From Kordiimonas sp. SCSIO 12610 (GTDB taxonomy: Bacteria; Pseudomonadota; Alphaproteobacteria; Sphingomonadales; Kordiimonadaceae), in assembly GCF_024398015.1 (NCBI RefSeq), contig NZ_CP073747.1, forward strand, positions 2,911,001 through 2,975,000: 64,000 nt of DNA, given 5' to 3'. Below are positions 6,524 to 53,954 of this stretch, one piece after another (the stretch's first letter is position 1; every line of letters starts with the position of its first letter). The notes beneath the pieces were generated by a model. That model made no database searches. It had not been told where the DNA came from and worked only from the letters and a program-made list of their open reading frames with translations. A program made the translations under genes and the position numbers.

Positions 6524-6538
6524 AAGATATTAAAACAC

Positions 6539-8144: not shown

Positions 8145-8155
8145 CAAATAATCAA

Positions 8156-30107: not shown

Positions 30108-31556
30108 ATGTGGATTAGGGTATTGTTGCTATGTGTAGTCGCTGGATTGCTCGCGGCTTGTCAGCCAGAAAGTCCTTTAGAAAGCAGGAATTCTGTTGTC
30201 CCAAGGTTTGAGACTGTAAAAGAGGATGGAGACTTTCCTGTTAAGATACCATCTGCCTTTGATGCAACTCTTGGCTGGTTAGTTATCGCTGAAGACCGCA
30301 ATAACGCACAGTCGCCCGAAATCCGATTACCCGTTGCCATTATTCATACATCGGCCAAAACTTCCAAAAGTCCTGTTGTGTATTTGTCTGGTGGTCCAGG
30401 TACGTCCGCGATGAGAACAGCTGCATTTCCAGGGGCCTATCCATGGCTCAAAGAACGGGACTTCATCGTCATCGGACAGCGGGGAACCCATTATGCAAAG
30501 CCTGCACTTATGTGCCCGGAATATCGTAATGCTGTGGAAAAAGGCACTGATCTAGTAGCCTCAGTAAAGGCTTGCAAGGCCAGACTCACACAGGATGGAA
30601 TTGGCCTCAAGAATTATAACAGCCTTACGAGCGCCGCAGACCTTGAGGACCTGCGTACAGTGTTGGGGATAGACACATGGAACCTGTACGGCGTCTCTTA
30701 CGGTACTCGCCTCGGTCTAATATATGCCAAGAACCATGGAGGTAGCCTCGATGCGATGGTGCTAGACTCGCCCCTTCCTCCTAACGCTATTTATGATGAT
30801 CAGAGCGCCAAAAACCTGGAAAATACACTCAGAAATATCGCCAAGGATTGTGCGTCGCAACCGTCCTGCAATAATGCCTTCCCAAATCTGGAGCAGCGGT
30901 TTTTTCAAACTATTGACGCTATAGTGAAATCGCCACTAGAGATTGACGGCCTCAATCAGCCTGTTACGGCGCCAGAGCTCGTATCACTTGTACCGCTCAA
31001 CTCTGGCAATGATGTTCGTCGTGCACCTTTGTTTATGGACTATTTAGCGCGGTTCGACCCTGTAATACAAGGCTATCTCGACAGCCCGGCACAAGCATCT
31101 GATCTTGCTTGGGGGATGCGTTTCTCCGTCTGGTGCAGCGAGGCCTTGCCTTTTAGTAAGCGCAGCCGCATGGAAAAACCAGGGCCAGTGTTAGGCGGAT
31201 ATGAAAGCGCAGCAATAACCCCAGAATTATGCCAGGCGTGGAGGGTGCCATCGCTGGATCAAAGTGTTGTGGAACCCGTCATTTCAGATGTCCCCACGCT
31301 TATTTTCGCCGGTGACTTTGACCCGCTTACACCGCCAATATGGGGGGAGCTGGCAGCTAACACTTTATCCAAAAGCTTAGTTGTAACGGTTAGAGGGGGC
31401 GGCCATTCAACCACTCAACAATGGGGCGGGGATGGATGTGCAATGGCGCTCGCCAACGACTTCATAAAAGAACCAGAGAGTGTTCTAGCGGCAGATAAAT
31501 CCGACTACTGTGTATTTGAACGTTCTGCACCTTCTTATATGTTGCAACTGGACTAG
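30108..31556 (+). CDS. Exported alpha/beta hydrolase, TAP-like (tripeptidyl aminopeptidase family)
   Basis: 482-residue lipoprotein-type hydrolase: MWIRVLLLCVVAGLLAAC is a signal with lipobox LAAC. The oxyanion-region YLSGGPGTSA is near residue 95, the nucleophile in YGVSYGTRLGLIYA near residue 195, and a C-terminal TAP domain carries the acid (FAGDFDPLTPP) and histidine (RGGGHSTTQ). ATG 30108 is chosen because AAGGAGG lies 8 bases before it and it starts the signal peptide. The gene ends 35 bp before a transposon right-end relic and may be chromosomal or leftover cargo of that older element. Confidence 0.8.
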   Translation: MWIRVLLLCVVAGLLAACQPESPLESRNSVVPRFETVKEDGDFPVKIPSAFDATLGWLVIAEDRNNAQSPEIRLPVAIIHTSAKTSKSPVVYLSGGPGTSAMRTAAFPGAYPWLKERDFIVIGQRGTHYAKPALMCPEYRNAVEKGTDLVASVKACKARLTQDGIGLKNYNSLTSAADLEDLRTVLGIDTWNLYGVSYGTRLGLIYAKNHGGSLDAMVLDSPLPPNAIYDDQSAKNLENTLRNIAKDCASQPSCNNAFPNLEQRFFQTIDAIVKSPLEIDGLNQPVTAPELVSLVPLNSGNDVRRAPLFMDYLARFDPVIQGYLDSPAQASDLAWGMRFSVWCSEALPFSKRSRMEKPGPVLGGYESAAITPELCQAWRVPSLDQSVVEPVISDVPTLIFAGDFDPLTPPIWGELAANTLSKSLVVTVRGGGHSTTQQWGGDGCAMALANDFIKEPESVLAADKSDYCVFERSAPSYMLQLD

Positions 31557-31590
31557 TTTATGGCCGATAGCATAAATTTGTACAACCATG

Positions 31591-31622
31591 GCCGTTATTC
31601 TCATTAATTATGAAAATGGACA
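31591..31622. repeat. Right end of an older, related Tn7-like element, outside the target duplication
   Basis: The terminal 26 bases, ending ATGAAAATGGACA, are identical to the right end at 53924-53949 and are followed by the same GCTGG. The preceding ATGGCC(G)TTATTCTC matches the sequence beside the third right-end site (53874-53889), so this end looks like the full right end after a 42-bp deletion between two of its repeated sites. Confidence 0.8.
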
Positions 31623-31627
31623 GCTGG
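31623..31627. repeat. Left target site duplication GCTGG
   Basis: GCTGG directly before the TGT terminus at 31628; the same five bases follow the ACA terminus at 53949. Five-base duplications are the hallmark of Tn7-family insertion. Confidence 0.85.
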
Positions 31628-31760
31628 TGTCCGTTCTCATAAATCACGAGAATCCAACAATTGAAATTATTAGACTTTTTCTAACCATTTTCACAATGAA
31701 CGAGACTCATTTTCACATAAAACGAGAAGAAAGTCCGTATTTTCATAATTAACGAGAATA
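31628..31760. repeat. Transposon left end with four TnsB-type sites
   Basis: Four direct copies of a motif close to TTTTCATAATTAACGAGAAT begin near 31633, 31687, 31709 and 31740. The outermost is joined to the terminal TGTCC. Spacing is uneven, as in Tn7 left ends. The innermost is the best match to the right-end sites. Confidence 0.8.
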
Positions 31761-31768
31761 AACCAAAA

Positions 31769-33355
31769 TCAATCATCGCATAGCTCGGGCCATGTTAAAC
31801 CAAACTTATTCAGGTATTTTCGGAGCCTGTCAGCATCATTCGGTTGCTTCTTGTTTTTCCTTGAAACTGCAAATAATATACGCCCAGCTTCAGACATAGA
31901 CTTCGAGTTTCGACATACATGAATGACCTTTTCAAGTTGTGCTTGATCAAACAAGTCAATATTATCAGCTTGTAAACCTGATATACTATCTAACGCTTCA
32001 TAACCTTGTGGCTGGGCCGACTGCCACTGTCGTTTTAGTCTTTCGATTTCATTGGATACCTGCTCAACACCAATCCTACCTCCATGTGCAAACGTTGCCA
32101 TTCTGGTCACCGCCGCCGACAAATCCCTGAAATTAGCTGACCACAGAGCTTCGCTTGATAATGCAAACCTCAGAAAACGCTCACGAGCTTCCTTATTAAA
32201 CGTCACACGGTCACCGCCTTGCCTAGCATAGCGATGTATTTCATAATCCAGGTTTGGTTCAATATCCTCCCGCCGTTCGGCCAGACCCGGCAAATGAAAT
32301 GTCCAGAGATTAAGGCGAGCATAAAGATCTTCTCTAAAATCTCCTTTTAAAACTGCTTCACCTAAATCCTTATTTGTTCCTGCAATCAGCTGAAATCTGC
32401 TTTCAGTTTCCTGATCAGCCCCTACAGGCATAAACCTGCCATCCTCAATAGCGCGAAGCATCATGGCTTGCTCATCCAAGCCAAGCTCGCCAATTTCATC
32501 AAGAAACAATACACCCTTATCAGCCGACTTTAACAAACCAGCTCGGTCAGACTGTGCACCAGTAAACGCGCCGCGCTTATGACCAAACAGTGCTGACATA
32601 GCACTATCCCCTCTAAGTGTTGCGCAGTTCACTTCAACAAAGCGTCCTTTCACCTGATGACGATTTTGCTTAAGATCATAAATCCGGCTAGCCAGCTGTG
32701 ATTTACCAGCCCCCGTCGGCCCCATCAACAGAACGGGCAGAGTTGACCTGATTGCGACCTGCTCGATCTCATCGATCATCACATTAAAGGCCTGATTACG
32801 CGTTTCAATCCCTGACTTCAGGAAGGAAATACCTTCCTTCTTTTCGCTCGCGAACCGACTTGCCAGCAAATCGTATTTTGACAGATCCAGATCAATAATT
32901 TGATAAGTTCCTGGGCCTAGATGCCCGCGCGAAGGGGACACCTGCATCAATTTCGCCGGGAAATGATGGCTCTCTGACATCAAAAACATACAAATCTGTG
33001 CAACATGTGTGCCCGTTGTAATGTTAATCAGATAGTCTTCTCGCTCAGGCATGAATGAATAATTCTGCGCAAAATCAAAAAGCACCCCATAGACTTCCTC
33101 GAAGTCCCAGGGGTCATCGATGATAATTTCAACACAGTTGACCTCTGTTTCGGGCGACACTTGCCACATATCGCGTGCTATTCGCTGGGCCAGTGCTTTG
33201 TGACGTCGATCATATAATAGCTCATAACGATCTATTACCAAATCTTCATGCATGCACGCAGCCACAGTGGGCCGCCAGCGATGCCATCGCTTATCCCCCT
33301 TGCCAGAGTCAAGCGTTGTCCCCAAGAAGCCAATAGCGACTGTTTTTTTAGCCAT
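31769..33355 (-). CDS. rtcR: RtcR, sigma54-dependent activator of RNA repair genes
   Basis: 528-residue enhancer-binding protein. The N-terminal RtcR/CARF-like sensor (KTVAIGFLGTTLDSG to about residue 180) is followed by the sigma54 AAA+ domain with Walker A GPTGAGKSQLA, the sigma54-contact loop GAFTGA, Walker B VLFLDEIGEL, and a C-terminal HTH. Family knowledge: RtcR senses RNA ends, probably 2',3'-cyclic phosphate fragments, and switches on rtcBA with sigma54. It is divergent from rtcB with a matching sigma54 promoter between them. The gene starts next to the transposon left end, so the module is carried inside the element. Confidence 0.93.
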   Translation of the reverse strand: MAKKTVAIGFLGTTLDSGKGDKRWHRWRPTVAACMHEDLVIDRYELLYDRRHKALAQRIARDMWQVSPETEVNCVEIIIDDPWDFEEVYGVLFDFAQNYSFMPEREDYLINITTGTHVAQICMFLMSESHHFPAKLMQVSPSRGHLGPGTYQIIDLDLSKYDLLASRFASEKKEGISFLKSGIETRNQAFNVMIDEIEQVAIRSTLPVLLMGPTGAGKSQLASRIYDLKQNRHQVKGRFVEVNCATLRGDSAMSALFGHKRGAFTGAQSDRAGLLKSADKGVLFLDEIGELGLDEQAMMLRAIEDGRFMPVGADQETESRFQLIAGTNKDLGEAVLKGDFREDLYARLNLWTFHLPGLAERREDIEPNLDYEIHRYARQGGDRVTFNKEARERFLRFALSSEALWSANFRDLSAAVTRMATFAHGGRIGVEQVSNEIERLKRQWQSAQPQGYEALDSISGLQADNIDLFDQAQLEKVIHVCRNSKSMSEAGRILFAVSRKNKKQPNDADRLRKYLNKFGLTWPELCDD

Positions 33356-33506
33356 TAAATTTATCCAAATTTATAATGTACGATTATTTTATATAATATA
33401 ATTGCATTATTGACAATCGGTTTACCAAGGAAAATAATACCAAACAATTTAAAATATACAATATAATCAATATCTTAAATACATATGTCGAGTGCAACTT
33501 CGAAAC

Positions 33507-33522
33507 TGGCACACCTCCTGCT
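33507..33522 (+). promoter_or_regulatory. Sigma54 promoter of the RNA-repair operon
   Basis: TGGCACACCTCCTGCT has the invariant GG and GC exactly 10 bases apart and fits the -24/-12 consensus TGGCAC-N5-TTGCW with one mismatch. A start near 33533 would give a 140-base leader before rtcB. The AT-rich stretch 33360-33490 could hold RtcR and bending-protein sites. Confidence 0.85.
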
Positions 33523-33549
33523 ATATCACATACATAGCAAAATAGATTT

Positions 33550-33641
33550 TGCTCCCGCGCCCTGAACAGATTGGGGGCAGAAGTCAAAGGGCTTGCGGTA
33601 ACGGGCTGTGGGAACCGGATCATTATCGAGGCGCGGGAGCA
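33550..33641 (+). ncRNA. Structured leader RNA of the RNA-repair operon (Y-RNA-like candidate)
   Basis: TGCTCCCGCGCC (33550-33561) and GGCGCGGGAGCA (33630-33641) form a perfect 12-bp GC-rich helix enclosing 68 bases. Inside, ACAG/CTGT and CGGT/ACCG can pair as alternatives. It begins about 17 bases after the predicted sigma54 start and ends 32 bases before the rtcB start codon. A long closing helix is also the shape of bacterial Y RNAs, which are encoded beside rtcB in some species, but no Ro gene or T-loop-like sequence is present here. Confidence 0.55.
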
Positions 33642-33673
33642 GGACAGAGAATTGAGTAGGTTAGGAAAAGAAA

Positions 33674-34909
33674 ATGTCTGAACAGAATTACGAAGTTATT
33701 GCAAGCGAAGGCCATGCCCCTGTCAAAATGTGGACACAGGGTGTGCCAGTAGATGAAGGTGCAAAAACCCAGCTTACCAAAGCCGCATCTATGCCGTTCA
33801 TTCACAAACATATCGCCGTTATGCCTGATGTGCACGTTGGTATTGGCGCTACAATTGGTTCGGTCATTCCAACGAAAAATGCTATTATTCCAGCGGCTGT
33901 TGGCGTTGATATCGGCTGCGGCATGATGGCTGCCAAAACAGATTTAACAGCTAATGACTTGCCGGATAATCTTTTTGGTATCCGAACCGCGATTGAGCGC
34001 GCTGTCCCGCATGGCATGACACCGTCACGAAGCCGCAGGAAAGGCCGCGATAAAGGATCATGGCATGATATTCCAGAACTCTCAGCGAAAGCTTGGGGTG
34101 GCCTTGTGGATAGGTTTGATCGTATCTGCGAGAACATGCCAGCGATCAAAAACACCAATAACGTAAACCACATGGGTACCCTTGGAACCGGCAATCACTT
34201 TGTCGAAGTATGCCTTGATGAACATGATCAGGTTTGGATTATGTTGCATTCGGGCTCACGGGGCGTTGGTAATGCAATTGGTCGCCGTTATATTGAACTT
34301 GCACGCAAGGACATGGAAAAATGGATGATTAACTTGCCGGATAAGGACCTTGCGTATTTCCCAGAGGGCACAGACCATTTCAATGACTATGTTTTTGCCG
34401 TTGAATGGGCGCAGGATTATGCCCGTAAAAACCGCGAGGTCATGATGGCAAATGTGATTGAAAGTATTCAAGTCGAACTTGGCCGCATGTTCAATGCTGA
34501 TGTGGAGGCAGTAAACTGCCACCACAACTATGTGACACGCGAAAATCACTTCGGTGAAAATGTTTTCGTGACACGCAAGGGCGCTGTGAGAGCGCGCAAA
34601 GGCGATTTGGGTATTATTCCAGGCTCGATGGGCGCACGGTCATATATCGTCCGCGGTCTTGGTAATGAAGAAAGTTTCTGTTCATGCAGCCACGGCGCTG
34701 GCCGAGTGATGAGCCGGACAGAGGCCAAAAAACGAGTGAGCCTTGAAGAACATATCACGGCAACCGCCGATGTTGAATGCCGCAAGGACAAAGGTGTTAT
34801 CGACGAAACACCGTCGGCTTACAAAAACATCGACGATGTAATGGAAGCACAGAAAGACCTTGTTGAGATCATGTATACATTGAAGCAAGTTGTATGCGTT
34901 AAGGGGTAA
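33674..34909 (+). CDS. rtcB: RtcB, GTP-dependent 3'-5' RNA ligase
   Basis: 411-residue ligase joining RNA 2',3'-cyclic phosphate or 3'-phosphate ends to 5'-OH ends. Metal and active-site blocks: PDVHVGIGATIGSV, GVDIGCGMMAAK (Mn-binding Cys), GTLGTGNHFVEV, VNCHHNYV, and the guanylated histidine in SHGAGRVMSR. The length is that of the compact bacterial RtcB. It is the first gene of a sigma54-controlled operon and overlaps no neighbour. Confidence 0.95.
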   Translation: MSEQNYEVIASEGHAPVKMWTQGVPVDEGAKTQLTKAASMPFIHKHIAVMPDVHVGIGATIGSVIPTKNAIIPAAVGVDIGCGMMAAKTDLTANDLPDNLFGIRTAIERAVPHGMTPSRSRRKGRDKGSWHDIPELSAKAWGGLVDRFDRICENMPAIKNTNNVNHMGTLGTGNHFVEVCLDEHDQVWIMLHSGSRGVGNAIGRRYIELARKDMEKWMINLPDKDLAYFPEGTDHFNDYVFAVEWAQDYARKNREVMMANVIESIQVELGRMFNADVEAVNCHHNYVTRENHFGENVFVTRKGAVRARKGDLGIIPGSMGARSYIVRGLGNEESFCSCSHGAGRVMSRTEAKKRVSLEEHITATADVECRKDKGVIDETPSAYKNIDDVMEAQKDLVEIMYTLKQVVCVKG

Positions 34910-34922
34910 TAAACAAGTGCTC

Positions 34923-35567
34923 ATGGAAAACCCATGGGCACACTTACAGAGCAATACCATGAAAACTGCACGATTAGAAAGAAAACGACAAGATCCATTG
35001 ATATGGAAACAAATATGGCAAAGAGTTATTATCGAGGACGTTACGTCATCCGACGAACGTATTATTGGAGTTGTTGAAAAACTAAAAACTGACTTCGTAT
35101 ATGGTGAGGTTATATTTCATCAGTACCAAATCTCGATTGATGCTGACGATAATGAGCAAACTTCAGACAACAATTTCAACATGCATGATAACTTACTAGA
35201 TTTATTAAATCATGAAAAAGTAAAAAGTGATTTGCCACAAATAAAGACGAATACTGCCAAGAAAGATTTCAAGTTAGAAGCTATTAGTTCATATCAATTC
35301 ATAGCTGATCTAGCTGGCATCCTCCATACGGGCGGTGCTTACACACCATCTGGTCATATAGTTGGTGATAAAGCTTTGATTTTGGCAAAAGACTTCTTTG
35401 AAGCTCTTTATGGATCACAAGGCTATCAATATCACTCGGGTGTAATTTATCGAGCTTCTACAGACTGGAGTTGTTGGTTTAATAACATATTTTGGGATTT
35501 TGTTTGGTTCCATCACGATTTCAAGAAACAAATAGTGACTATATTTCTAGGCACTGACACAGATTAA
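34923..35567 (+). CDS. Hypothetical protein in the RNA-repair operon
   Basis: I do not recognise this 214-residue protein. The N-terminal half is charged and soluble. The C-terminal half is aromatic-rich, with AGILHTGGAYTPSGHIVGDK near residue 140 and DWSCWFNNIFWDFVWFHHDF near residue 190, and the protein ends FLGTDTD. No signal or TM helix is certain. The start is uncertain (ATG 34923 or 34959; neither has a good ribosome site). Its place between rtcB and rlaP suggests an RNA-repair or RNA-sensing role, which is inference only. Confidence 0.6.
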   Translation: MENPWAHLQSNTMKTARLERKRQDPLIWKQIWQRVIIEDVTSSDERIIGVVEKLKTDFVYGEVIFHQYQISIDADDNEQTSDNNFNMHDNLLDLLNHEKVKSDLPQIKTNTAKKDFKLEAISSYQFIADLAGILHTGGAYTPSGHIVGDKALILAKDFFEALYGSQGYQYHSGVIYRASTDWSCWFNNIFWDFVWFHHDFKKQIVTIFLGTDTD

Positions 35568-35593
35568 ATGACGCTTCAAGTAGTAGACAAATA

Positions 35594-36427
35594 ATGAATC
35601 AATTAGCCAATATATCCCCATCGGCTCATACCGAAATCATGGAAAACCTCAATGCAATCCAAAGCGATCATGATGTACGCATCCTATTTGCGATTGAAAG
35701 TGGATCACGCGCATGGGGTTTTCCGTCACCGGATAGCGATTACGATGTTCGGTTTGTCTATGTGCATTCGCAAGATTGGTATTTAACAATAACACCGGGG
35801 CGCGATGTGATCGAATTACCATTATTCGACAAAGACACTTACTATGAAAACCGCTACGAACACGATCTGGATATCAATGGTTGGGACTTAAAGAAAGCCT
35901 TAAACTTACTCATGAAGCCAAACCCGGTTTTGCTCGAATGGCTTTCAAGCCCGATCAGATATATGTGGAACAATGAAGCCTGTGATGATTTAACGGCGCT
36001 TTCAAGAAAAGTTACCTTTGGGCCTGCTTGCCTACATCATTATCTAAACCTTGGAAGGCGCCAATGGAACACGTATGTCGGTGATAAAACCGAGGTAAAT
36101 CTGAAGAAATATTTTTACATCGTTCGCCCCGCTATGGCGATCAGATGGTTAAGGATGAACTCTGACATAACGCCCCCAATGAACTTTTATGATTTGAAGG
36201 CTGGTATTAATTTATCAGCAAATCTTAATGAGCAACTAGACGAACTCCTTGAAAAGAAAAGTCGCTCAAAGGAACTTGGGGAAGCCAAAAGAATAGATAT
36301 TGTTGATAAATTCGTAATGAATGAGCTCTTTTGGGCATCAGAAGCTGTCAAAAAAATGCCCAGAGCATCCACCAACTTGCAGGATGAAGCGAATAACATT
36401 TTCAAAAAATGGATTAAACTGGTGTGA
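35594..36427 (+). CDS. rlaP: RlaP-like nucleotidyltransferase (YcgL family)
   Basis: 277-residue DNA polymerase beta-superfamily protein. The nucleotidyltransferase motif IESGSRAWGFPSPDSDYDVR (residues 34-53) gives the GS and DxD metal site, and RFVYVHSQDWYL and PVLLEWLSSPIRY follow the family. RlaP-type proteins recur beside RtcB and RtcA and are annotated as RNA-repair associated; their substrate is not established. It probably adds a nucleotide to RNA or protein. It lies in the middle of the rtc operon. Confidence 0.85.
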   Translation: MNQLANISPSAHTEIMENLNAIQSDHDVRILFAIESGSRAWGFPSPDSDYDVRFVYVHSQDWYLTITPGRDVIELPLFDKDTYYENRYEHDLDINGWDLKKALNLLMKPNPVLLEWLSSPIRYMWNNEACDDLTALSRKVTFGPACLHHYLNLGRRQWNTYVGDKTEVNLKKYFYIVRPAMAIRWLRMNSDITPPMNFYDLKAGINLSANLNEQLDELLEKKSRSKELGEAKRIDIVDKFVMNELFWASEAVKKMPRASTNLQDEANNIFKKWIKLV

Positions 36428-36484
36428 TGGTCGAGGGCAAGAACGACACCCCGCATTTTACTCATCAGCTTGTAGATTAGATAA

Positions 36485-37522
36485 ATGAAAAAAATAATAA
36501 AAATAGATGGCAGTAAAGGCGAAGGTGGCGGACAGGTTCTTCGCACTAGCCTTAGCCTATCGATGATAACGGGACACCCTTTTATCATCGAAAATATTCG
36601 CGCAAACAGGAAAAAGCTGGGCTTGATGCGTCAGCATCTAACCTGCGTCAAAGCAGCAGCAACTATCTGCGGTGCCACAATTGAAGGCGCAGAGCTTGGC
36701 TCTAGTACCGTTTCTTTTATACCCAATGCAGTAAAGGCGGGCTTATATGATTTTTCGATTGGCACTGCGGGCAGCACACTGCTTGTTTTGCAAACCTTAT
36801 TACCCGCCTTAATGCTTGCAAACAATCCATCGAAACTACATTTGAATGGTGGTACACATAATAAGCAAGCCCCCAGCTTTGAGTTTATCAACAACGCGTA
36901 TATACCCATTCTGGCCAAAATGGGGGTGCGTATTGATGCCTTACTGGAGCGCCGTGGTTTCTTTCCGGCAGGTGGTGGTCAAGTGGCCTTTGATATCACC
37001 CCAACGACCAAATTAAACCCAATCGACCTTAGTGACGGTGGCAAAATCAAAAAGGTTCTGGCGAAAGCTATTTTGGCTAAAATTCCTATGAACATCGGAC
37101 CGCGCGAATTAAAGGTTGCGAAATCGCGCCTCAATATCGATGAGGCGAACTGCATAGTGATTGATGATCGCAACACTGACGGGCCTGGTAATACATTCAG
37201 CATCGAAGTTCAGCGGGAGCATGTAACAGAAGTTTTTGTCCAACACGGCGAACTGGGGGTTTCCGCAGAGAGTGTGGCAAAAAACGCTTGCCGTTCTGCC
37301 GGGCGGTATTTACGTGCACCTGATGCGGCCGTCGGCCCTTATCTCGCTGATCAGCTATTGCTGCCGATGTCACTAGCAGGCAAAGGGAAATTCACAACAT
37401 TACGCCCAAGCCTACATACAATAACAAATATCGATACGATTAAACAGTTTCTTGATGTCGATATACAATTGATTGAAACTGGCGAAGGTATTTGGACTAT
37501 TGAAGTAGGGAGGAACTTTTAA
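36485..37522 (+). CDS. rtcA: RtcA, RNA 3'-terminal phosphate cyclase
   Basis: 345-residue ATP-dependent enzyme converting RNA 3'-phosphate to 2',3'-cyclic phosphate. It starts IIKIDGSKGEGGGQVLRTSL. The conserved GTAGSTLLVLQTLLPAL is near residue 97, FPAGGGQV near 163, and the adenylated histidine lies in PSLHTITN near residue 315. Its product is a substrate for RtcB, so the two act in sequence. The stop codon shares one base with the next start (TAATG), indicating translational coupling. Confidence 0.94.
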   Translation: MKKIIKIDGSKGEGGGQVLRTSLSLSMITGHPFIIENIRANRKKLGLMRQHLTCVKAAATICGATIEGAELGSSTVSFIPNAVKAGLYDFSIGTAGSTLLVLQTLLPALMLANNPSKLHLNGGTHNKQAPSFEFINNAYIPILAKMGVRIDALLERRGFFPAGGGQVAFDITPTTKLNPIDLSDGGKIKKVLAKAILAKIPMNIGPRELKVAKSRLNIDEANCIVIDDRNTDGPGNTFSIEVQREHVTEVFVQHGELGVSAESVAKNACRSAGRYLRAPDAAVGPYLADQLLLPMSLAGKGKFTTLRPSLHTITNIDTIKQFLDVDIQLIETGEGIWTIEVGRNF

Positions 37523-37851
37523 TGAATAAGAACACTAAGGTTATTGACTCCGATATAATAACCCCTTTCAAGATTGAACATAATGTCGATGAAATTATCA
37601 CCAATGGCAAACTGGAACAGTATTATAATTTCATCGACTACCATTTTGAAAAAAATGGTGCATTCATGTTAGCTAGAACGTATTTAGACGACATAAAAAC
37701 CATTACACTGGATGGACCATTTTCCGATGCAAATCATTATGAAGAAGTTGACATGCCCGATCTCAAAGAAAACGTTATTGCCTATTTGCGACGACGTTAT
37801 TCTGAAATTCAAACACAGGGTAAAGACGGATACCAAACAATAAGAGAATAA
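37522..37851 (+). CDS. Small hypothetical protein coupled to rtcA
   Basis: 109 residues, acidic and aromatic, with no recognised domain, TM helix or signal. Features are the segment YYNFIDYHFEKNGAFMLARTYLD in the middle and VIAYLRRRYSEIQ near the C-terminus. It overlaps the rtcA stop by one base and is followed after 7 bases by the phosphatase gene, so it is almost certainly expressed with the repair operon. A small adaptor or subunit is possible; no function is claimed. Confidence 0.6.
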   Translation: MNKNTKVIDSDIITPFKIEHNVDEIITNGKLEQYYNFIDYHFEKNGAFMLARTYLDDIKTITLDGPFSDANHYEEVDMPDLKENVIAYLRRRYSEIQTQGKDGYQTIRE

Positions 37852-37858
37852 CATACTC

Positions 37859-38302
37859 ATGAAGCCTCTCGTTATTTTTGACATTGATGGCACACTTGCC
37901 GATATCAGCCATCGTCGTCACTTTGTCATGGGCGACAATCAAAATTGGGCTGCTTTTTTTAAAGAAATGGGCGATGACACACCAAATAAGCCTGTTGTCG
38001 GCCTCTATCAAACCCTCACGGTATCAAATGTCTATGACCTTATTATTGTCTCTGCTCGCCCCGAGAACTACAGGCTATTGACCGAACAATGGCTTGTTTG
38101 GAATGGCATTGAATTTGACCGACTGATCATGCGTCCTGAAAAGGATTATCGCCCGGATACAGAGATCAAGAAAGAAATTCTGGATCTGTTGTTATCAGAA
38201 GGTCGGGAAATTGCTTTTGTAGTAGATGACAGAGATAGCGTTGTGGACATGTGGCGAGAGAACGGCATTACCTGCCTTCAGTGTGCACCCGGCGATTTTT
38301 AG
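37859..38302 (+). CDS. HAD-type polynucleotide 3'-phosphatase (Pnkp C-terminal-like)
   Basis: 147-residue HAD phosphatase: motif I IFDIDGTLAD (residues 6-15), motif II in IIVSARPENY, and the motif IV aspartates in VVDDRDSVVDMWRENGI. The wording matches the C-terminal phosphatase half of phage T4 polynucleotide kinase-phosphatase, which removes 3'- or 2',3'-cyclic phosphates from RNA. The kinase half is absent. In this operon it would oppose RtcA at 3' ends, which is inference. It is the last gene of the operon. Confidence 0.8.
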   Translation: MKPLVIFDIDGTLADISHRRHFVMGDNQNWAAFFKEMGDDTPNKPVVGLYQTLTVSNVYDLIIVSARPENYRLLTEQWLVWNGIEFDRLIMRPEKDYRPDTEIKKEILDLLLSEGREIAFVVDDRDSVVDMWRENGITCLQCAPGDF

Positions 38303-38381
38303 AATTGCACCGTCATTGTTCACAGGCGCGTATCTAACTAGCTATAAATTTGCTTTAAAGCTTTTACAAATTTCTCATCTC

Positions 38382-41300
38382 TCAATGAAAGTTTCGCCCT
38401 TTCGGTAAAATAGCTTTCACCCGATTAATCTTATTTCCCTTAGTTTTGTCTCTTCTATCCCTTGCATCTGATCCACCATATTTAAACTCGTCTACATCAG
38501 AATGAGGCTCAAACATCTCATCACAGCCTGTGATCTGAACAAGCTCGTTATTCAGATCAAAAAGCTGCCGTGCAACCACGTGAATAACGCCGTCTTCTTT
38601 TTGCACTTGCCCAACAACCCCTAGCACCTTGGCACCAATCACCGTTCTGCGTTCCGCTTCGAATAATTTGGGCCAGATGATAATATTCATTACGCCTGTT
38701 TCATCTTCCAAAGTCGCGAAAATCACACCTGATGCCGTTCCCGGACGCTGCCTTACAAGCACGAGACCTGCCAGCGAGACAAGATGCTTATCCGGGTGTG
38801 CCTTGAGTTCTTCGGCAGTAATGAAATAGCGCTCGCTCAAACTTGGTCGCAGGAAAGCCAAAGGGTGGCCCTTTAGGGATAATTTGATTGTCGTATAATC
38901 CTCAATCACATGCTCGCCAAGTGGCATTGACGGCAAAGCCATCTCCGCCTCATGTTGCATGTTTTGATTATTATCGTTCATCGCCCGATTGAACAGCGGC
39001 AAGTCTTCAACCGCACTGCGCTTACCTATGGAAGCTCCCAATCCCTGTGCTGCCCATAGTGCTGTTCGCCTATCCAAACCAATTGAGCGAAAAGCATCTG
39101 CTCTTGCAAGCCGCTCTATTGTTTTAACGGAAAACCCTGTCCTGAAATAAAGATCACGCACGCTATCAAACCCTTGCTCTCGAACACGGACCAATTGTTC
39201 AGCATCATCTTGGCCAATACCTTTGATTTGCCTAAGGCCAAGCCGAAGCGCATGCGCATTACCCCCCTCAGGCGTTTGGGCTTTTGGGCTTTCTATTGGT
39301 TCTAACGTATGATCCCACAGGCTTTTGTTTATGTCTGGCGGCAGGACCGTACCCCCATGTTCCTGCAAGTCTCGCACAAGCGACGCGCTTGAATAAAAGC
39401 CCATAGGGAGCGAGTTTAGAAGCGCGCAGGTAAAGACATCAGGATAGTAGCATTTTAGCCATGAGGACACATAAGCCAAGAGTGCAAAGCTGGCTGAATG
39501 ACTTTCAGGAAATCCATAATCAGAAAACCCCTCAATCTGTTTGAAACATTGCTCGGCAAATATTGACGTGTATTTGTTAGCAATCATGCCTTTGATAAAT
39601 TTCTCTTTGAAAGCATCAATACTGCCAGAACGCTTGAAAGTCGCCATAGCCTTTCTAAGTCTGTCGGCCTCGCTTGGTGTAAAGCCTGCCCCCACAATCG
39701 CGATTTTCATTGCCTGTTCCTGAAATAAGGGCACACCCAAGGTTTTTGAAAGGACTTCCTCAAGTTCCCTAGAAGGATACTCTACTTTTTCCTTCTTTTG
39801 TCGGCGCTTGAGGTATGGGTGCACCATATCCCCCTGAATGGGTCCAGGGCGCACAATAGCAATTTCAATTACCAGATCATAAAATTCACGGGGGCGTAAG
39901 CGTGGCAACATCGACATCTGCGCACGGCTCTCAATCTGGAAAACACCAACTGTATCTGCCCGACAGATCATCTCATACGTTCCTTGATCTTCCGCTGGTA
40001 CAGTCGCAAGCTCCAACGGCCGCTCATAATGATCTTCAATAAGCTTGAATGCCTTTCTAATTGCGCTCAACATGCCAAGAGCCAAGATATCAATCTTAAG
40101 AATACCAAGCGCATCCAGATCATCTTTATCCCATTCAACATAAGTCCGATCTGCCATAGCGGCATTGGCAATGGGTATCACCTCATCAAGCGGACCGTTC
40201 GTAATGACAAAGCCGCCCACATGCTGCGATAGATGCCTTGGGAACCCAGCAATCTGCTTCACAAGAATAAGTGTTTGATTAAGCGTTGGATCATTAAGAT
40301 CAAGGCCGAGTTCAGTAACGCGCTCTGGTGTTAAGCCACCCTTGGACCAATGGGAACCATTTGCTGATAAGGCTGAAACAGTGTCCAAGGATAATCCCAT
40401 GGCTGTCCCAACCTCACGCACTGCGCTGCGAGTTCTATAGGTCACAACCGTTGCGGCAATCCCGGCACGGTGACGTCCATATTTTTCATAAATATATTGG
40501 ATAACCTCTTCCCGGCGCTCGTGCTCGAAATCCACATCGATGTCTGGAGGTTCATTGCGGTCGGCAGAGATAAACCTTTCAAAGAGAAGGTCAATTTTAG
40601 TCGGATCAACACTTGTGATACCAAGGCAAAAACAAACCGCAGAATTCGCCGCAGACCCGCGCCCTTGGCATAGAATGCCCTTATCTCTCGCGTACCGGAC
40701 AATATCATCAACGGTCAGAAAATATGAAGCGTAATTGAGCTCTTTAATAAGCGACAATTCATGCTCAAGGGTCGCTTTGACCTTATCACTAATACCATCT
40801 GGATACCGACGCTTGGCACCTAACCACGTAAGGCGCTCCAGCTCTTCTTGTGGTGTCGCACTTTCACCTGCTGGCTCATTAGGATATTCATATCTCAGCT
40901 CGTCCAGTGAAAACGTGAGCGCATGCATAATCTCCGAGGTTCTGTGAACAGCGTCTTCATAGCCCTTGAAAATATGACGAACATCGGCTGTTGTTTTCAT
41001 ATGCCGTTCAGCACTCGCCTGTAAACGCATCCCGGCATCCATAATTGTCACATGTTCGCGGATGCAGGTAAGAATGTCCTGTAAAGGTCGCCTGTTAGGT
41101 TGGTGATAAAGAATATCACCAATCGCAACGAGTGGTGTCTGATACACTTTTGCTATCGCTTTAAGGCGCAACATGCGGCGGTCGTCATTACCTTGGTAAA
41201 GCCGTGTTAAGCCAAGATATACATGCTCTCCAAAAAGGCCTGATAACCTTAACAATCCTGCTTCAAGTTCGTCAGTCAGCTTATACTCAGGAACAGCAAT

Positions 41301-41678
41301 GAATATGTGGCCCTGATCAAGGTCCCTCAAATCGTCAAAATTCAGAATGCAAGTACCTTTCTCAGCGCGGCGATTACCTTTCGTGAGTAGTTTGGTCAGG
41401 CGACCATAGGCCGCGCGGTCTTTAGGGAACGTAAGCACCTCAAAGCCACATGTTAGGACAAGTCGAACACCAACAATATAGCGTATCCCAGCTTCTTTGG
41501 CAGCGACATGACCTCTTACAATGCCTGCAACACTATTTCTGTCGGTAATAGCAACGGCGCCGTAACCGAAAACAGCCGCCTGTGTAACCAATTCATCAGG
41601 GTGAGAAGCACCGCGCAGGAATGAGAAATTACTGGCGACACACAGTTCTGCATATGGAATGTCAACATTCTTACTCAT
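38382..41678 (-). CDS. dnaE2: Error-prone DNA polymerase III alpha subunit DnaE2
   Basis: 1098-residue C-family translesion polymerase. An N-terminal PHP domain (YAELCVASNFSFLRGASHP) is followed by the polymerase core with the catalytic aspartates in PDIDVDFEH (about residue 400), a helix-hairpin-helix region and an OB fold. ATG 41678 overlaps the imuB stop as ATGA; the upstream in-frame start inside imuB is not used. With ImuA and ImuB it forms the SOS mutasome, in which DnaE2 does the synthesis. Conserved sequence and full length argue that it works. Confidence 0.93.
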   Translation of the reverse strand: MSKNVDIPYAELCVASNFSFLRGASHPDELVTQAAVFGYGAVAITDRNSVAGIVRGHVAAKEAGIRYIVGVRLVLTCGFEVLTFPKDRAAYGRLTKLLTKGNRRAEKGTCILNFDDLRDLDQGHIFIAVPEYKLTDELEAGLLRLSGLFGEHVYLGLTRLYQGNDDRRMLRLKAIAKVYQTPLVAIGDILYHQPNRRPLQDILTCIREHVTIMDAGMRLQASAERHMKTTADVRHIFKGYEDAVHRTSEIMHALTFSLDELRYEYPNEPAGESATPQEELERLTWLGAKRRYPDGISDKVKATLEHELSLIKELNYASYFLTVDDIVRYARDKGILCQGRGSAANSAVCFCLGITSVDPTKIDLLFERFISADRNEPPDIDVDFEHERREEVIQYIYEKYGRHRAGIAATVVTYRTRSAVREVGTAMGLSLDTVSALSANGSHWSKGGLTPERVTELGLDLNDPTLNQTLILVKQIAGFPRHLSQHVGGFVITNGPLDEVIPIANAAMADRTYVEWDKDDLDALGILKIDILALGMLSAIRKAFKLIEDHYERPLELATVPAEDQGTYEMICRADTVGVFQIESRAQMSMLPRLRPREFYDLVIEIAIVRPGPIQGDMVHPYLKRRQKKEKVEYPSRELEEVLSKTLGVPLFQEQAMKIAIVGAGFTPSEADRLRKAMATFKRSGSIDAFKEKFIKGMIANKYTSIFAEQCFKQIEGFSDYGFPESHSASFALLAYVSSWLKCYYPDVFTCALLNSLPMGFYSSASLVRDLQEHGGTVLPPDINKSLWDHTLEPIESPKAQTPEGGNAHALRLGLRQIKGIGQDDAEQLVRVREQGFDSVRDLYFRTGFSVKTIERLARADAFRSIGLDRRTALWAAQGLGASIGKRSAVEDLPLFNRAMNDNNQNMQHEAEMALPSMPLGEHVIEDYTTIKLSLKGHPLAFLRPSLSERYFITAEELKAHPDKHLVSLAGLVLVRQRPGTASGVIFATLEDETGVMNIIIWPKLFEAERRTVIGAKVLGVVGQVQKEDGVIHVVARQLFDLNNELVQITGCDEMFEPHSDVDEFKYGGSDARDRRDKTKGNKINRVKAILPKGRNFH

Positions 41679-43282
41679 GCGAAAAATCCATGCATAAACC
41701 ATGTGGGCTTTTCCTCGCGCTCATAAAGCCCGCACCTAAATAGCCAATAGCGATATCCGTCCATGTCTTCTACACGGTAATAATCCCGCGTTCGCTCTAT
41801 GGCGTCGCTTCTTCGTGCCCACCATTCAGGCGCGATGCGTTCAGGCCCTTCTGCTGCGTGAATGCGGCACTTAAGCTTGCGCCATTCGAACAATACAGGC
41901 GGTCCATCAGGTACTTCTGCAATCGCCGTAATTGGTTCGGGTTTTGGAAGCAACATGATCGGCCGCCCCAGATGATTATCGCCCTGAAGCTTCTCAAGAA
42001 AGGCATTCCAATTAGCCGTCTTAAGGCGTTTATCATCAGGAGCCACATAGGCCTCAGAACGTTCTGGAATATAGCTCTCATTCGGGATCAATTGCCCGAC
42101 CGCTTGCGAACCGAACCGATTGGCGATCCGGTTAATGAGCGTATCAAAACTCGCTGCGCGGTCCGAAGTGCCATGCGAGAGTATACCTATTTGCTCAATA
42201 GTTAAGTGCTCGCATGCATATGCAGCGAGGCTAATCTGCTCAACCCCAAAGCCTGCATCATAGGTTTCGATAAAGAATTTCAGTTTTTCACTTAGAAGTC
42301 GAACCAAAAGGCTTGTGTCGTTTGTATGCCGATGAGTGCCAATAATAAGATCATTTGCAACCCCATCAACACGGTAAAGCGTTAACTCAAAACGCTGTGC
42401 ACCCTTTTTTGCTTCTTTGAGCATATTCATTAACTCTGCGGCCAAGCTGACCACGTGATGCTCTAAACTCTCTAGGTGTAATATCGGTTCAAGAAAACGA
42501 GCGCTGTTTCTATAAACTGGTGGTTCCTTAAGCGGCACCAAACTTTCACTTTTATGTCCTAAAGCCTGATCCAGTCGGGTGAGTAATAGATCACCATAAC
42601 GGGCAGCAATTGGTGCACGAGGCTTATCATAGAGGCTGCCTACCGTTGTCAGCCCAACCTGGGCAAGCCTGTCCGCTATATCACTACCAACCCGAAGGCT
42701 TTCAATAGGAAGCGACCTCATCGCGTGTTTTGATGTTACAGAGGTAATTATACTTTTAGGGCTCTGACCATAGCGAGCGACAGCATGCGCGCAGCCAATT
42801 GTATCCGCGATAGCAATACGAGTGCTAAAGCCAAATTCACTAAACCGCATAATAATATCATTTAAAAGCGCGTCTTCACCGCCCACAAGATGGACTGAGC
42901 CTGTAATATCCATCAACAGACCATCAGGTGGATCATAAGTAACCCATGGACAATAACGCATGAGCCACAAGGCCAGTTGCCTTAAAGTATTTGCATCGCC
43001 TTCAGGTTCATAGTCCTTTACTATCAAGGCAGGATAAAGCGTTCGAGCATCAGCAAGTAATTGGTGAATATCCACGCCAACAGCACGAGCTCTCGGGTTC
43101 ATTGCCATGACACGTGTACCGCCTTGGGCAGAGGCGACGAGAACTAAAGGGTGATCTGGCTCTTTAGCCGACTGCGCTGATTGGCTCCAGTCTGACCTGG
43201 TTTGATCCAATCGCTTCAACCTTTCGGTTGGCCAATTCGGAAGCCAGATCGAGACGAAGCGCCTCTGTGTTCCAGACAACAT
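41675..43282 (-). CDS. imuB: ImuB, Y-family-like mutasome protein
   Basis: 535 residues. MLSGTQRRFVSIWLPNWPTE is the usual ImuB start, so ATG 43282 is chosen over an upstream in-frame ATG. Typical segments are GVDIHQLLADARTLYP and GLLMDITGSVHLVGGE. The acidic catalytic triad of active Y-family polymerases is missing, as in known ImuB, which serves as a hub contacting the beta clamp, ImuA and DnaE2. Its 5' end overlaps imuA by 119 bases in another frame, and its 3' end overlaps dnaE2 by 4 bases. Confidence 0.9.
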   Translation of the reverse strand: MLSGTQRRFVSIWLPNWPTERLKRLDQTRSDWSQSAQSAKEPDHPLVLVASAQGGTRVMAMNPRARAVGVDIHQLLADARTLYPALIVKDYEPEGDANTLRQLALWLMRYCPWVTYDPPDGLLMDITGSVHLVGGEDALLNDIIMRFSEFGFSTRIAIADTIGCAHAVARYGQSPKSIITSVTSKHAMRSLPIESLRVGSDIADRLAQVGLTTVGSLYDKPRAPIAARYGDLLLTRLDQALGHKSESLVPLKEPPVYRNSARFLEPILHLESLEHHVVSLAAELMNMLKEAKKGAQRFELTLYRVDGVANDLIIGTHRHTNDTSLLVRLLSEKLKFFIETYDAGFGVEQISLAAYACEHLTIEQIGILSHGTSDRAASFDTLINRIANRFGSQAVGQLIPNESYIPERSEAYVAPDDKRLKTANWNAFLEKLQGDNHLGRPIMLLPKPEPITAIAEVPDGPPVLFEWRKLKCRIHAAEGPERIAPEWWARRSDAIERTRDYYRVEDMDGYRYWLFRCGLYEREEKPTWFMHGFFA

Positions 43283-43946
43283 GATGATTACCAAGGCGAT
43301 TATCCCTGGCCTTTGTGACCTTGAGGTGCCAGGCAGGATAGCCCATAAGAGAGAAGGCACTTCGGTGGCTTTGCAAACCAACACCTGGACTTGCCTCAAC
43401 CAAAATACGCTGATCCGCAGCCGTTGTCCCGTTTGCCCTGTGGGGCCTGACCATTAGAACTGGCGTATTGGTTTCGCGAGCACGAAGGCGCAAGCGTTTG
43501 CTTTCAGTGAATCCATAGAGCTTTTCTGACCAGAGAACGCCGCATACGGCAGCAACAGAACCGGATGCAATAGCTTCTTCCATTACCCACAATAGATCAC
43601 GCTCAGCGCTAAGGGTTACTTTAGTAATCCGCGCGGGATTAAGACCGTATGCAGTCAAACCAGGAGCATGCAAGTGCAAGCGTTCAGGTTCTCTTAACTG
43701 GCACCATAGAATGGAACCGGAATTATTTTGACTGAAGCTAACAAGCGACGCCAGAACACTACCGAGTGCCGCCACGCGGTCACGGTAACATGCAGGCTGC
43801 ACCTCTACCAGAGTACCAGGTTTAATCTCATTAGCCTGCATGCCAAAAGGCGCCTCTTGATCGCCACTCGCAAGGCGACATGTACCTTGCGGCCCCTCAA
43901 GATGAGCGATTTTTTCTCGCAGATTTTGAACTGGTGACTGTTTCAT
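43164..43946 (-). CDS. imuA: ImuA, mutasome accessory protein
   Basis: 260-residue RecA-superfamily relative that regulates the mutasome. Recognisable segments are LVEVQPACYRDRVAALGSVLASL and LLWVMEEAIASGSVAAVCG near residue 120. It lacks a good Walker A, as usual. It is the first gene of imuA-imuB-dnaE2, with a LexA box 22 bp before the start codon. The overlap with imuB is longer than the few bases seen in most operons. Confidence 0.85.
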   Translation of the reverse strand: MKQSPVQNLREKIAHLEGPQGTCRLASGDQEAPFGMQANEIKPGTLVEVQPACYRDRVAALGSVLASLVSFSQNNSGSILWCQLREPERLHLHAPGLTAYGLNPARITKVTLSAERDLLWVMEEAIASGSVAAVCGVLWSEKLYGFTESKRLRLRARETNTPVLMVRPHRANGTTAADQRILVEASPGVGLQSHRSAFSLMGYPAWHLKVTKARDNRLGNHHVVWNTEALRLDLASELANRKVEAIGSNQVRLEPISAVG

Positions 43947-44080: not shown

Positions 44081-44107
44081 TGTCCATTTCCATAATTAGC
44101 GAGAATA
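44081..44107. repeat. Internal transposon left end (single site)
   Basis: TGTCCATTTCCATAATTA followed by GCGAGAATA matches the terminal TGT plus TnsB site, in the same orientation as the left end at 31628 and closest in sequence to the right end. No further sites follow within 150 bp. It divides the element into the repair/mutagenesis module (31628-44080) and the transposition/retron module (44081-53949). Confidence 0.75.
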
Positions 44108-44359
44108 AAAACTGATCCCGTAATCAAAGCTAAACATTAGAAATTAATGTCGCCAAAGGACGGTTTCATTGCCTTTTTTATTTTTTTCGATTTTTGAAAA
44201 ATTTTTCGATCTTCAAGCATAAATAGTTATAGAGCTTGTGGAAGCTTATCTATGATATGCAACTTTTACTTGACAAATTTGTGATTTTATGATATAACAA
44301 TAAACCCACTCTGTGCGATTTCACACTAAGTGGATTTCATTAATAACAGGGAGAAATAT

Positions 44360-46427: not shown

Positions 46428-47603
46428 TTACTGACTTTCTTCAAAACGTTCCACAGATTTAGTTTCAATGCGGTACACATGCTGATCGCCCATTTTTATC
46501 TTATGACCAGTAAAGGTACCATCATTAAACAACCTAATAACCCTGGCAGACGACATCGACAGTCTTTCCTTAACTTCACTACGAGTAAGAAATTGTTCCT
46601 GAATTTTACTAGCTTCATGAAGACTATGACCGCCACGCCCAGTAATCCGGGAACAATATTCAGAACTGTAAATAAAATGCTCTACTGAATCACGGAGGTG
46701 CCGGAAACACTGCGCTCCCGGTTCATCAACAATCCTATGGTATAGCCTGCCAAAGCGAGTATCATTTCGGAGTGAAAACTCATTCCCGCCTCTCGCATCC
46801 CATTTTAGAAGTTGCCGTAAATAATCTTCAAAATTATTGGGCCAATCAAACAATGCATTAGCAATTGCATCTGCAATATTTGAAGCTGAGGTAGGCATTA
46901 ACTTTCCTATGCTGTCATCAGTTGCTAGTAAGCGTTCTGCCAGCAACAGCACTGTACGCCAAAAATATTTATAACCTCCGCAATTAAAATCAATTTCAGC
47001 ATCTGCAGAATATGGCATAGGCCATCCTCGCTCAATAAATTCAGAGAAGGCCAACATATGATCTGAAGGCGCCTTGTTATTAAGAGCATGTGTGAAAGGC
47101 TCATCACATTTATTACATACACCGACTTTGGAGCGCCACCATGTTAGACGACCGCCGCAGCCTGGTCTTTGACACCGGTCGATGAGGTAACACTTATGCC
47201 TAGAGCATACATGATAGAACCTCAGGTCCCAAACAGAGCTAATAGCGCCTGTTTCCTGCACACAATCCGGACATATCTTTGGGTTTTGTAGATCAAAGAG
47301 GGATGCTGGCATATCACCAAACCGTCCAAAACTTATATTTTGATACCGACTTGTATTTGATCGAGCATACGTGATTGCAACAACCTCATCATCAAACCCA
47401 TCGAGTATTTTGGATAAGGACGATACAGCTTCTCTCACAAATGCGAAGGACATAATGGGGTCTTTCTCAGATAAAAGACTGTAGATCCATCTCGGCTTCT
47501 CATAACGGTTAAGTTCTGAAAGCCGCATAACATAACCAGGAACATTCTCAAAAGGCTTGGGAGCATCCACAAGGGGCAAGGTAAGGTGTTTATTCAAAAT
47601 CAT
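46428..47603 (-). CDS. tniQ: TniQ-family target-selection protein
   Basis: 391 residues. An N-terminal TniQ domain (GYVMRLSELNRYEKPRW) is followed by a zinc-binding region with CPDCVQ, CSRH and the CxxxC/CxxC pairs of QRPGCGG and VCNKCDEP. A C-terminal HTH-like module begins FLTRSEVKERLSMSS. TniQ/TnsD proteins bind the attachment site and recruit TnsC. As the only such protein here, it is the best candidate for recognising the tRNA-Ile2 gene. Its ATG overlaps the tnsC stop by 4 bases. Confidence 0.88.
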   Translation of the reverse strand: MILNKHLTLPLVDAPKPFENVPGYVMRLSELNRYEKPRWIYSLLSEKDPIMSFAFVREAVSSLSKILDGFDDEVVAITYARSNTSRYQNISFGRFGDMPASLFDLQNPKICPDCVQETGAISSVWDLRFYHVCSRHKCYLIDRCQRPGCGGRLTWWRSKVGVCNKCDEPFTHALNNKAPSDHMLAFSEFIERGWPMPYSADAEIDFNCGGYKYFWRTVLLLAERLLATDDSIGKLMPTSASNIADAIANALFDWPNNFEDYLRQLLKWDARGGNEFSLRNDTRFGRLYHRIVDEPGAQCFRHLRDSVEHFIYSSEYCSRITGRGGHSLHEASKIQEQFLTRSEVKERLSMSSARVIRLFNDGTFTGHKIKMGDQHVYRIETKSVERFEESQ

Positions 47604-51285: not shown

Positions 51286-51360
51286 CAAGGCCTCCTAACA
51301 TTAGTTAATAGAGAACCGCGCTGAAAAGTATGTTTCCAGTTGCAATTCGTTCGAATGTAT

Positions 51361-52466: not shown

Positions 52467-52787
52467 ATGCCTGAACTCAAAAGACCCATGATTAATGAGG
52501 CGCTTACGCTAGTTCGGCTTTACTGGGGATACTCTCAGATTGAGCTGTCCAATCTACTGAGTTTGTCACAATCCCTAATTTCAGACATTGAACGTGGGTC
52601 TAAACCAGTCACTATGGAAGTGTTAGAACGATACAGTGAAAGACTTAATATTAGGATGTCGCAACTGCTCTTTTTCGCAGAAGAAATGGAAGGAGAACCT
52701 CCGGTGAGAAAAGGTAAATTGATTGTTGCACAAAAAGCTCTATCGCTCTTAGAAAAGCTCAGCCCAGCAGAAGTCAAACACCATTGA
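52467..52787 (+). CDS. XRE/HTH retron accessory protein
   Basis: 106 residues with a cro/C1-type HTH (IELSNLLSLSQSLISDIERG, about residues 25-44). It overlaps the reverse transcriptase start by 4 bases (TTGA), so the two are translated together. Retrons whose recognised partner is a single HTH protein form a named class (type VI in the current scheme, from memory). It probably represses the retron promoter or binds msDNA. Confidence 0.82.
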   Translation: MPELKRPMINEALTLVRLYWGYSQIELSNLLSLSQSLISDIERGSKPVTMEVLERYSERLNIRMSQLLFFAEEMEGEPPVRKGKLIVAQKALSLLEKLSPAEVKHH

Positions 52788-53830: not shown

Positions 53831-53881
53831 TTCAATTATCCGCTTGTGGCCGTTAGTAGACCTCTTAGAAATATGGCCATT

Positions 53882-53949: not shown

Positions 53950-53954
53950 GCTGG
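53950..53954. repeat. Right target site duplication GCTGG
   Basis: GCTGG after the ACA terminus, identical to 31623-31627, four bases from the encoded CCA end of the tRNA gene. Confidence 0.85.

Follow-up and report, generated by a model that had tools for sequence, protein, structure and literature searches.

A probable RtcR-controlled RNA-repair operon with a conserved leader RNA, carried by a Tn7-like transposon in Kordiimonas

We analysed a 64,000-nucleotide stretch of Kordiimonas sp. SCSIO 12610 (contig NZ_CP073747.1, positions 2,911,001 to 2,975,000; hereafter the window), in which six genes divergent from rtcR combine the RNA ligase RtcB and the RNA cyclase RtcA with a nucleotidyltransferase and a predicted 3'-phosphatase. 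We propose that this is probably an RtcR-controlled operon for the repair of RNA, most likely of tRNA, and that it forms cargo of a Tn7-like transposon, at the left end of the element. The gene arrangement agrees with an earlier sequence-only reading of this DNA, which had described one σ54 promoter followed by six genes, with rtcR divergent: both the coordinates of the open reading frames (ORFs; rtcB, ORF2, rlaP, rtcA, ORF5 and a HAD phosphatase gene) and the site at 33507 correspond. The promoter-like site TGGCACACCTCCTGCT (33507–33522, forward strand), ahead of rtcB, is identified by its match to the −24/−12 consensus and is unchanged in the relative described below. The rtcR gene (31769–33355, reverse strand) encodes the RtcR N-terminal domain (PF06956, 264.8 bits) and a σ54 activator domain, both above cut-offs, and its product scored 819.8 bits against NCBIfam NF038308 (cut-off 650).

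The four enzymes, all encoded on the forward strand, likewise exceeded their Pfam cut-offs under the names first given to them. They are RtcB, the ligase of RNA 3'-phosphate or cyclic-phosphate ends to 5'-OH ends (33674–34909; PF01139, 438.1 bits), RlaP, an RNA-ligase-associated nucleotidyltransferase of the Polβ type (35594–36427; PF10127, 277.6 bits), RtcA, the RNA 3'-phosphate cyclase (36485–37522; PF01137, 266.1 bits), and a predicted Pnkp-type HAD 3'-phosphatase (37859–38302; HAD_PNKP PF25109, 117.5 bits). When RtcB was aligned with the solved structure 2epg, the cysteine and histidine positions were kept; we take these to be the active site, and the active-site residues sought in RtcA and in the phosphatase were presumed in the same way. 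RtcA matched the solved RtcA chain 3kgd at 337 bits (E 1.2e-99), and both rtcB and rtcA keep their conserved motifs, as expected of an RtcR-regulated RNA-repair operon. The phosphatase matches PHROG polynucleotide kinase families, its DxDGT and DDR...MWR motifs align with Pnkp1 (4xrp) and with 5uj0, and relatives were found in 3366 of 50,697 phage records and 638 of 72,556 plasmid records. A sequence search of the PDB returned no solved relative of RlaP at E ≤ 1. In PADLOC, at the same threshold, RtcR alone among the seven proteins found a match, and the other six hit 0 families.

The two genes that had been called unknown gave no Pfam match at E ≤ 0.1. ORF2 (34959–35567, forward strand; 202 amino acids from an ATG, or 225 from a TTG at 34890) has no assigned family and showed no relative in Pfam at that threshold, in PHROGs or PADLOC at E ≤ 1, or in plasmids, viral contigs and genome contigs; two weak matches (E 1.5e-4 and 4.1e-4) appeared among 385 genomes of the class, and hits of E 0.073 in NCBIfam and E 0.32 in Pfam were rejected as chance level. 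ORF5 (37522–37851, forward strand; 109 amino acids) also lacks an assigned family, its best match in Pfam, PADLOC, PHROGs and NCBIfam being no better than E 0.06, with none in plasmids. It evolves fast, with 56% identity between the window and its relative, against 88–96% for the other shared genes. The best hits in the PDB sequence search had E 0.7 for ORF5 and 1.3 for ORF2. AlphaFold models reached a pLDDT (predicted local distance difference test) of 34 for ORF2 and 44 for ORF5, and were therefore unfit for a fold search.

Carriage by a transposon, which had also been proposed, is borne out by the termini, the target duplication and the transposition genes. The element covers 22.3 kb (31628–53949) between TGTCC...GGACA termini (TGTCCGTTCTCAT at 31628 and ATGAAAATGGACA at 53949), and the 5-bp duplication GCTGG stands on both sides (31623–31627 and 53950–53954). 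Its left end (31628–31760, forward strand) contains four end repeats of about 20 nt and has a homologue in the relative; its right end (53881–53949, reverse strand) contains two inverted end repeats and adjoins, across a gap of 9 bases, a tRNA-Met(CAT) gene identified with ARAGORN (53959–54035, reverse strand). Genes for TnsA-like, TniA, TniB and TniQ proteins lie inside the element at 46428–51288, with Pfam scores of 37.7 bits for TniQ, 82.6 for TniB, 37.7 for Mu-transpos_C and 26.8 for Tn7_TnsA-like_N (cut-off 26.5). This transposition gene set, the TGT...ACA ends with repeats and the 5-bp target duplication place the element among the Tn7-like transposons. It carries, besides the operon, polymerase genes, a DUF6602 gene, the transposition genes, a helix-turn-helix (HTH) gene and a retron-type reverse transcriptase. 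The latter is type VI-like (PADLOC RT_VI, 208 bits), so that the retron placed next to the operon by the sequence-only reading does share its element, but about 14 kb away rather than adjacent. Tn7-like elements are known to use tRNA sites and to carry defence genes, including retrons (PMC8649781), and tRNA homing has been described (PMC10293859). The main text of the former, a survey of Tn7-like cargo, mentions neither RtcB nor RNA repair.

Several further observations concern the element. The HTH gene overlaps the reverse transcriptase gene (52467–53830). Beside the operon, at 38382–43399, genes with DNA_pol3_alpha and IMS domains, presumably dnaE2 and imuB, read as a cassette of the mutagenesis type. 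Just outside the left end, 31596–31627 is an exact 32-nt copy of 53923–53954, that is, of the right end with GCTGG; judged from its sequence, this copy would most simply be an older right end, and it suggests repeated insertion at the tRNA-Met site.

A second copy of the operon was found in the uncultured Kordiimonas 81-G (locus L019, genome G405), the only one besides the window whether 29 genomes of the family were searched with the leader DNA or 276 genomes of the order with an RNA model. There the operon lies within a 7.5-kb element (3140–10613), again between TGTCC and GGACA, whose flanks AAGGG and AATGG agree at 4 of 5 positions. This element stands beside the same tRNA-Met and has the same right-hand neighbours, and of the left-hand neighbours of the element in the window, the two that we looked for were absent from the 3.1 kb of sequence on its left side. 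Apart from a weak transposase-HTH match that fell slightly short of the Pfam cut-off, no transposition gene was detected here. Counted from the left end through rtcB, the copies share 86% identity over 3289 nt. The slot between rtcB and rlaP is occupied in 81-G by a gene of 186 amino acids without detectable likeness to ORF2, and the slot between rlaP and rtcA by a gene of 149 amino acids that is absent from the window. Thus the enzymes and ORF5 are constant, and the genes flanking rlaP have been swapped.

The sequence-only reading had named confinement of the operon to fixed chromosomal loci in relatives as grounds for dropping its proposal; this is not clearly the case, as the two copies stand beside the same tRNA-Met but within transposon termini. 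The operon may have moved recently; its two known copies lie at one tRNA-Met, and no second insertion site was seen. Nor was an empty syntenic site found: outside the genus, the sulfatase gene that lies to the right of this tRNA-Met is not beside a tRNA-Met (upstream regions of 15 of the 19 other matching family genomes were inspected, with a tRNA in 0/15). The tRNA-Met itself was matched in 24 of the 29 family genomes, at 25 places, and the left flank was read at 18 of these. Leaving aside the window and 81-G, 0/16 flanks showed a GGACA end, their surroundings not being syntenic, which indicates that in those genomes the tRNA-Met is without this element's end. In another member of the family (L173), the tRNA-Met is bordered immediately on its left by an array of other repeats (GTCACTAATAGTGAA-like), perhaps the end of another transposon that uses this site.

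For the region between promoter and rtcB, the sequence-only reading recognised the σ54 site and overlooked a structured leader RNA (33547–33644, forward strand). This RNA follows the site and ends about 30 nt before rtcB, with no gene between. Its basal stem has 15 bp (33547–33561 paired with 33630–33644), and the folding energy of the 141-nt leader is −46.6 kcal/mol, compared with a mean of −34.67 for shuffled sequences (z −3.92; 0/200 shuffles as stable). Between the window and 81-G, 103 of 108 nt (95%) are identical, and this conservation includes the loop region; upstream of the promoter, 101 of 146 aligned positions are identical. Identity at fourfold-degenerate sites was 93/180 for rtcB, 119/213 for rtcR, 92/155 for rtcA, 65/90 for rlaP, 22/53 for the phosphatase gene and 6/17 for ORF5 (35–72% over all shared genes), and the conservation of the leader exceeds that of the silent sites in every one of them. 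This is most simply explained by selection acting on the RNA; a recombination patch could also account for it. In the part enclosed by the basal stem, the best fold of one copy is unlike that of the other; two sequences offer no useful covariation, and any inner fold is provisional.

Searches for other copies of this RNA gave little. Rfam had no match at E ≤ 1 in 31400–38500, and for 151 nt of the leader it returned a miRNA model alone, far below cut-off; no Rfam match to YrlA or tRNA models was obtained for the leader, and ARAGORN called no tRNA there. A covariance model built on the two copies (R1) found no convincing third copy in 35 searched sources, other RtcR loci included (L109 matched at E 1.5). 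Its single extra match in the 276 order genomes (G824; 30 bits, E 4e-4) was judged by reading to be a chance hit, a repeat within an acyltransferase-like gene. The leader sequence had no match in phages or plasmids; in 60 order genomes it had two short ones, of 19 and 29 nt (E 0.004–0.006), in G430 and G436. A 16-nt leader pattern gave 11 viral matches, which we discarded as their flanks look unrelated. We also rejected the leader as a coding sequence: a frame that stays open in the two copies across the 135 nt compared has no ATG that we saw, is out of frame with rtcB, and shows 5 non-synonymous and 1 synonymous codon differences. The leaders of L022, L025, L026, L103 and L104 have in common a GC hairpin that is nearly palindromic (GGGCGGCCGGAATGGGCCGGCCGCCC-like) and whose sequence bears no relation to that of the window's leader RNA.

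How unusual this operon is was judged from a survey of RtcR loci. RtcR was present in 12 of 385 sampled genomes of the class and in 26 of 378 sampled genomes of the phylum, 25 of the latter over cut-off (the weak G517 was dropped). The 34 loci compared were the window, 81-G, 11 from the class (L020–L030) and 21 from the phylum (L092–L112), some of them cut by a contig end (L095). On plasmids, RtcR was found in 76 of 72,556 records (E ≤ 1e-60), 47 of them from Rhizobium. The rlaP gene accompanies rtcB on the operon strand in 12/34 loci, nine of which have the order rtcB-rlaP-rtcA (the window, 81-G, L092, L093, L094, L097, L102, L104 and L107); in L098 and L100 rtcA was undetected, and in L105 rlaP comes after rtcA. 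In one further genome (L113), rlaP follows rtcR, and across the class RlaP occurs in 20/385 genomes, mostly distant from RtcR. Of the 34 RtcR genomes, 2 encode HAD_PNKP and the other 32 do not; at the RtcR loci of these 32, tblastn (E ≤ 1e-3) found neither ORF2 nor ORF5. Hence rlaP beside rtcB is ordinary, and the rare parts are the phosphatase, ORF2 and ORF5. The view that the operon exceeds the usual rtcBA pair holds for these three and not for rlaP, and the idea of a gene set unusual as a whole finds no support, rtcB with rlaP being frequent.

Some of these operons carry RNA genes of their own. In 5/34 loci (L023, L093, L097, L104 and L105), ARAGORN placed tRNA genes in the interval from rtcR to rtcB, with the operon's orientation. 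Rfam, which covered the window and 23 of the remaining 33 loci, added YrlA in L020 and L094 (overlapped in L094 by a 33-bit tRNA match) and a weak tRNA in L102; in most loci the two programs detected no tRNA or YrlA between rtcR and rtcB. The tRNA or tandem tRNA-like genes before rtcB lie at L093:9483-9628, L097:9565-9710, L104:9714-9791 and L105:869-1083, the first of them 246–294 nt from the rtcR start in each case, and that of L104 is a tRNA-Pro(TGG) between a σ54-like site and rtcB. Several tRNA-like genes have no normal anticodon or encoded CCA and may, from their sequence, be decoys or replacements. Downstream of rtcA in L096 (5165-6333), tRNA-Asn, His, Gly and Ile genes follow on the operon strand. 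YrlA within RtcR operons is already known (PMC7790460, PMC9879122); for tRNA genes in RtcR operons we found no paper, which is weak evidence as literature coverage was partial.

From the protein families we infer how the substrates, the induction and the division of labour may be arranged. The CARF domain of RtcR would sense cleaved tRNA fragments ending in a 2',3'-cyclic phosphate and fire the σ54 promoter, and transcription would then yield the structured leader RNA together with the repair enzymes. Indeed, Salmonella RtcR binds tRNA 5' fragments with such ends (PMC7790460), and in E. coli RtcAB bind the RtcR CARF domain and are needed for activation (PMC9650030). RtcB would rejoin cyclic-phosphate or 3'-phosphate ends to 5'-OH ends and RtcA would remake the cyclic phosphate from 3'-phosphate, the two forming a resealing branch. 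In a second, reset-and-extend branch, the HAD phosphatase would turn the 3'-phosphate into a 3'-OH, after which RlaP may restore lost nucleotides or exonucleases may clear the fragment. This two-branch scheme follows predictions made for phage repair sets, where RlaP, beside RNA ligases, would restore lost nucleotides and Pnk-HAD would clear phosphates (PMC7824862). ORF5 would serve as a conserved accessory and the genes flanking rlaP as exchangeable ones. By analogy with the work on RtcR and tRNA fragments (PMC7790460), a role against phages or anticodon nucleases is plausible. The proposal of an RtcR-controlled RNA-repair operon is also favoured by the enzyme families and motifs, by the unchanged promoter-like site and near-identical leader in 81-G, by the duplication at the transposon ends, and by the tRNA, tRNA-like or YrlA genes that precede rtcB, after rtcR, in part of the other RtcR operons. 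Elsewhere (L002:1138-2879, at about 1.164 Mb of G000:C1), the host genome encodes another RtcB, its gene followed by one for a GGQ-motif protein that we take from this motif to be prfH. An RtcB2-PrfH module is reported to protect against cleavage of 16S rRNA by colicin E3 (PMC9223846). Such a separate pair would cover 16S damage, which makes tRNA the likelier target of the operon in the window.

Two points weigh against this proposal. The exact operon was found in only two genomes, at the same tRNA-Met in both. An end extended by RlaP is a 3'-OH, which RtcB is not known to use, and an RNA ligase of family PF09414, the only such family searched for, was found in 0/2 genomes with the operon; the HAD/RlaP branch may thus serve something besides resealing. 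One may ask whether the operon is a defence system at all. It could be a housekeeping or general-stress set for RNA damaged by oxidation or antibiotics (rRNA or tmRNA) that became a chance passenger of the transposon, an explanation that we consider unlikely. It draws on work in E. coli that connects Rtc with tmRNA during oxidative stress (PMC9650030) and with antibiotics that target the ribosome (PMC12606134), on the plasmid-borne RtcR genes, many of them from Rhizobium, and on PADLOC having recognised RtcR only; the phage-type phosphatase, the fast divergence of ORF5, the swapped accessory genes and the retron-type reverse transcriptase in the same element suggest conflict instead. Less probable still, in our view, is that the operon is chromosomal, inherited at the tRNA-Met locus, and that the transposon is a smaller neighbour. 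An inner repeat resembling the left end (TGTCCATTTCCATAATTAGCGAGAATA, 44081–44108) would then bound that neighbour, and the two copies of the operon do have the tRNA-Met neighbour and the right flank in common. However, no duplication matches at the inner repeat (ACAAG versus GCTGG), whereas that of the outer end (31628) is a perfect one of 5 bp, and in 81-G the operon lies between matching ends with no transposition genes seen. Moreover, pooled fourfold identity between the two genomes is 397/708 for the six operon genes and 61/211 for four host flank genes, although a fifth flank gene shows the opposite trend (54/77; flank total 115/288). The inner repeat, which matches the right end in 81-G, may mark a fused, older or other element.

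A rival of greater weight concerns the leader, which could be a plain 5' untranslated region whose stable stem guards the rtcB mRNA or regulates its translation, with no activity of the RNA itself; we rate this somewhat short of even. The short distance to rtcB without an intervening gene fits it well, as do the simple GC hairpins, of no sequence likeness, that lead some alphaproteobacterial RtcR operons, and the failure of R1 to match any other RtcR locus searched. Nevertheless, the loop region is conserved as well, and to a degree beyond the fourfold sites of every shared gene, which is more than a bare stem requires, though a recombination patch could mimic it. We speculate, and hold it as a tentative idea only, that the RNAs leading RtcR operons are working parts, namely decoy or replacement tRNAs or damage sensors, that the leader in the window represents a new class unrelated to them, and that together with the exchangeable genes around rlaP it would form a modular, transposon-borne kit against nucleases.

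The RtcR-rtcBA operon of E. coli and Salmonella, whose physiological function is still called poorly understood (PMC9879122), shares with the window the divergent RtcR, the σ54 promoter and the pair rtcB and rtcA, and in Salmonella a noncoding RNA in the same transcription unit recalls the leader described here. In contrast, the window adds rlaP, the Pnkp-type phosphatase, ORF2 and ORF5 and sits on a transposon, no Rsr or YrlA was found in it, and its leader matches no tRNA or YrlA model of Rfam. The other RtcR operons that contain rlaP share rtcB and rlaP, mostly rtcA, and the divergence from rtcR, but have no HAD_PNKP gene in the genome, and neither ORF2 nor ORF5 was detected at the locus. 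With the phosphatase domain of phage T4 Pnkp and bacterial Pnkp1, the window protein shares the HAD family and the aligned motifs, but it stands alone, without a kinase domain, and in the context of RtcB rather than Rnl. The RtcB2-PrfH module has an RNA ligase of the RtcB family in common with the operon; it differs in its rRNA target and in its separate locus, where no RtcR was seen within 3.7 kb. This natural variant, in which a predicted 3'-phosphatase and a nucleotidyltransferase accompany RtcB and RtcA and the transposon also holds a retron-type reverse transcriptase, points to the repair of deliberately cleaved RNAs, and provides a small, testable gene set for the function of RtcR-rtcBA. 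The leader and the tRNAs of other RtcR operons suggest that the RNAs of these operons merit study as decoys, replacements or sensors. Altogether, the surprise lies not in rtcB with rlaP and rtcA but in the conservation of the leader RNA, in a phosphatase of phage type and in the exchange of accessory genes.

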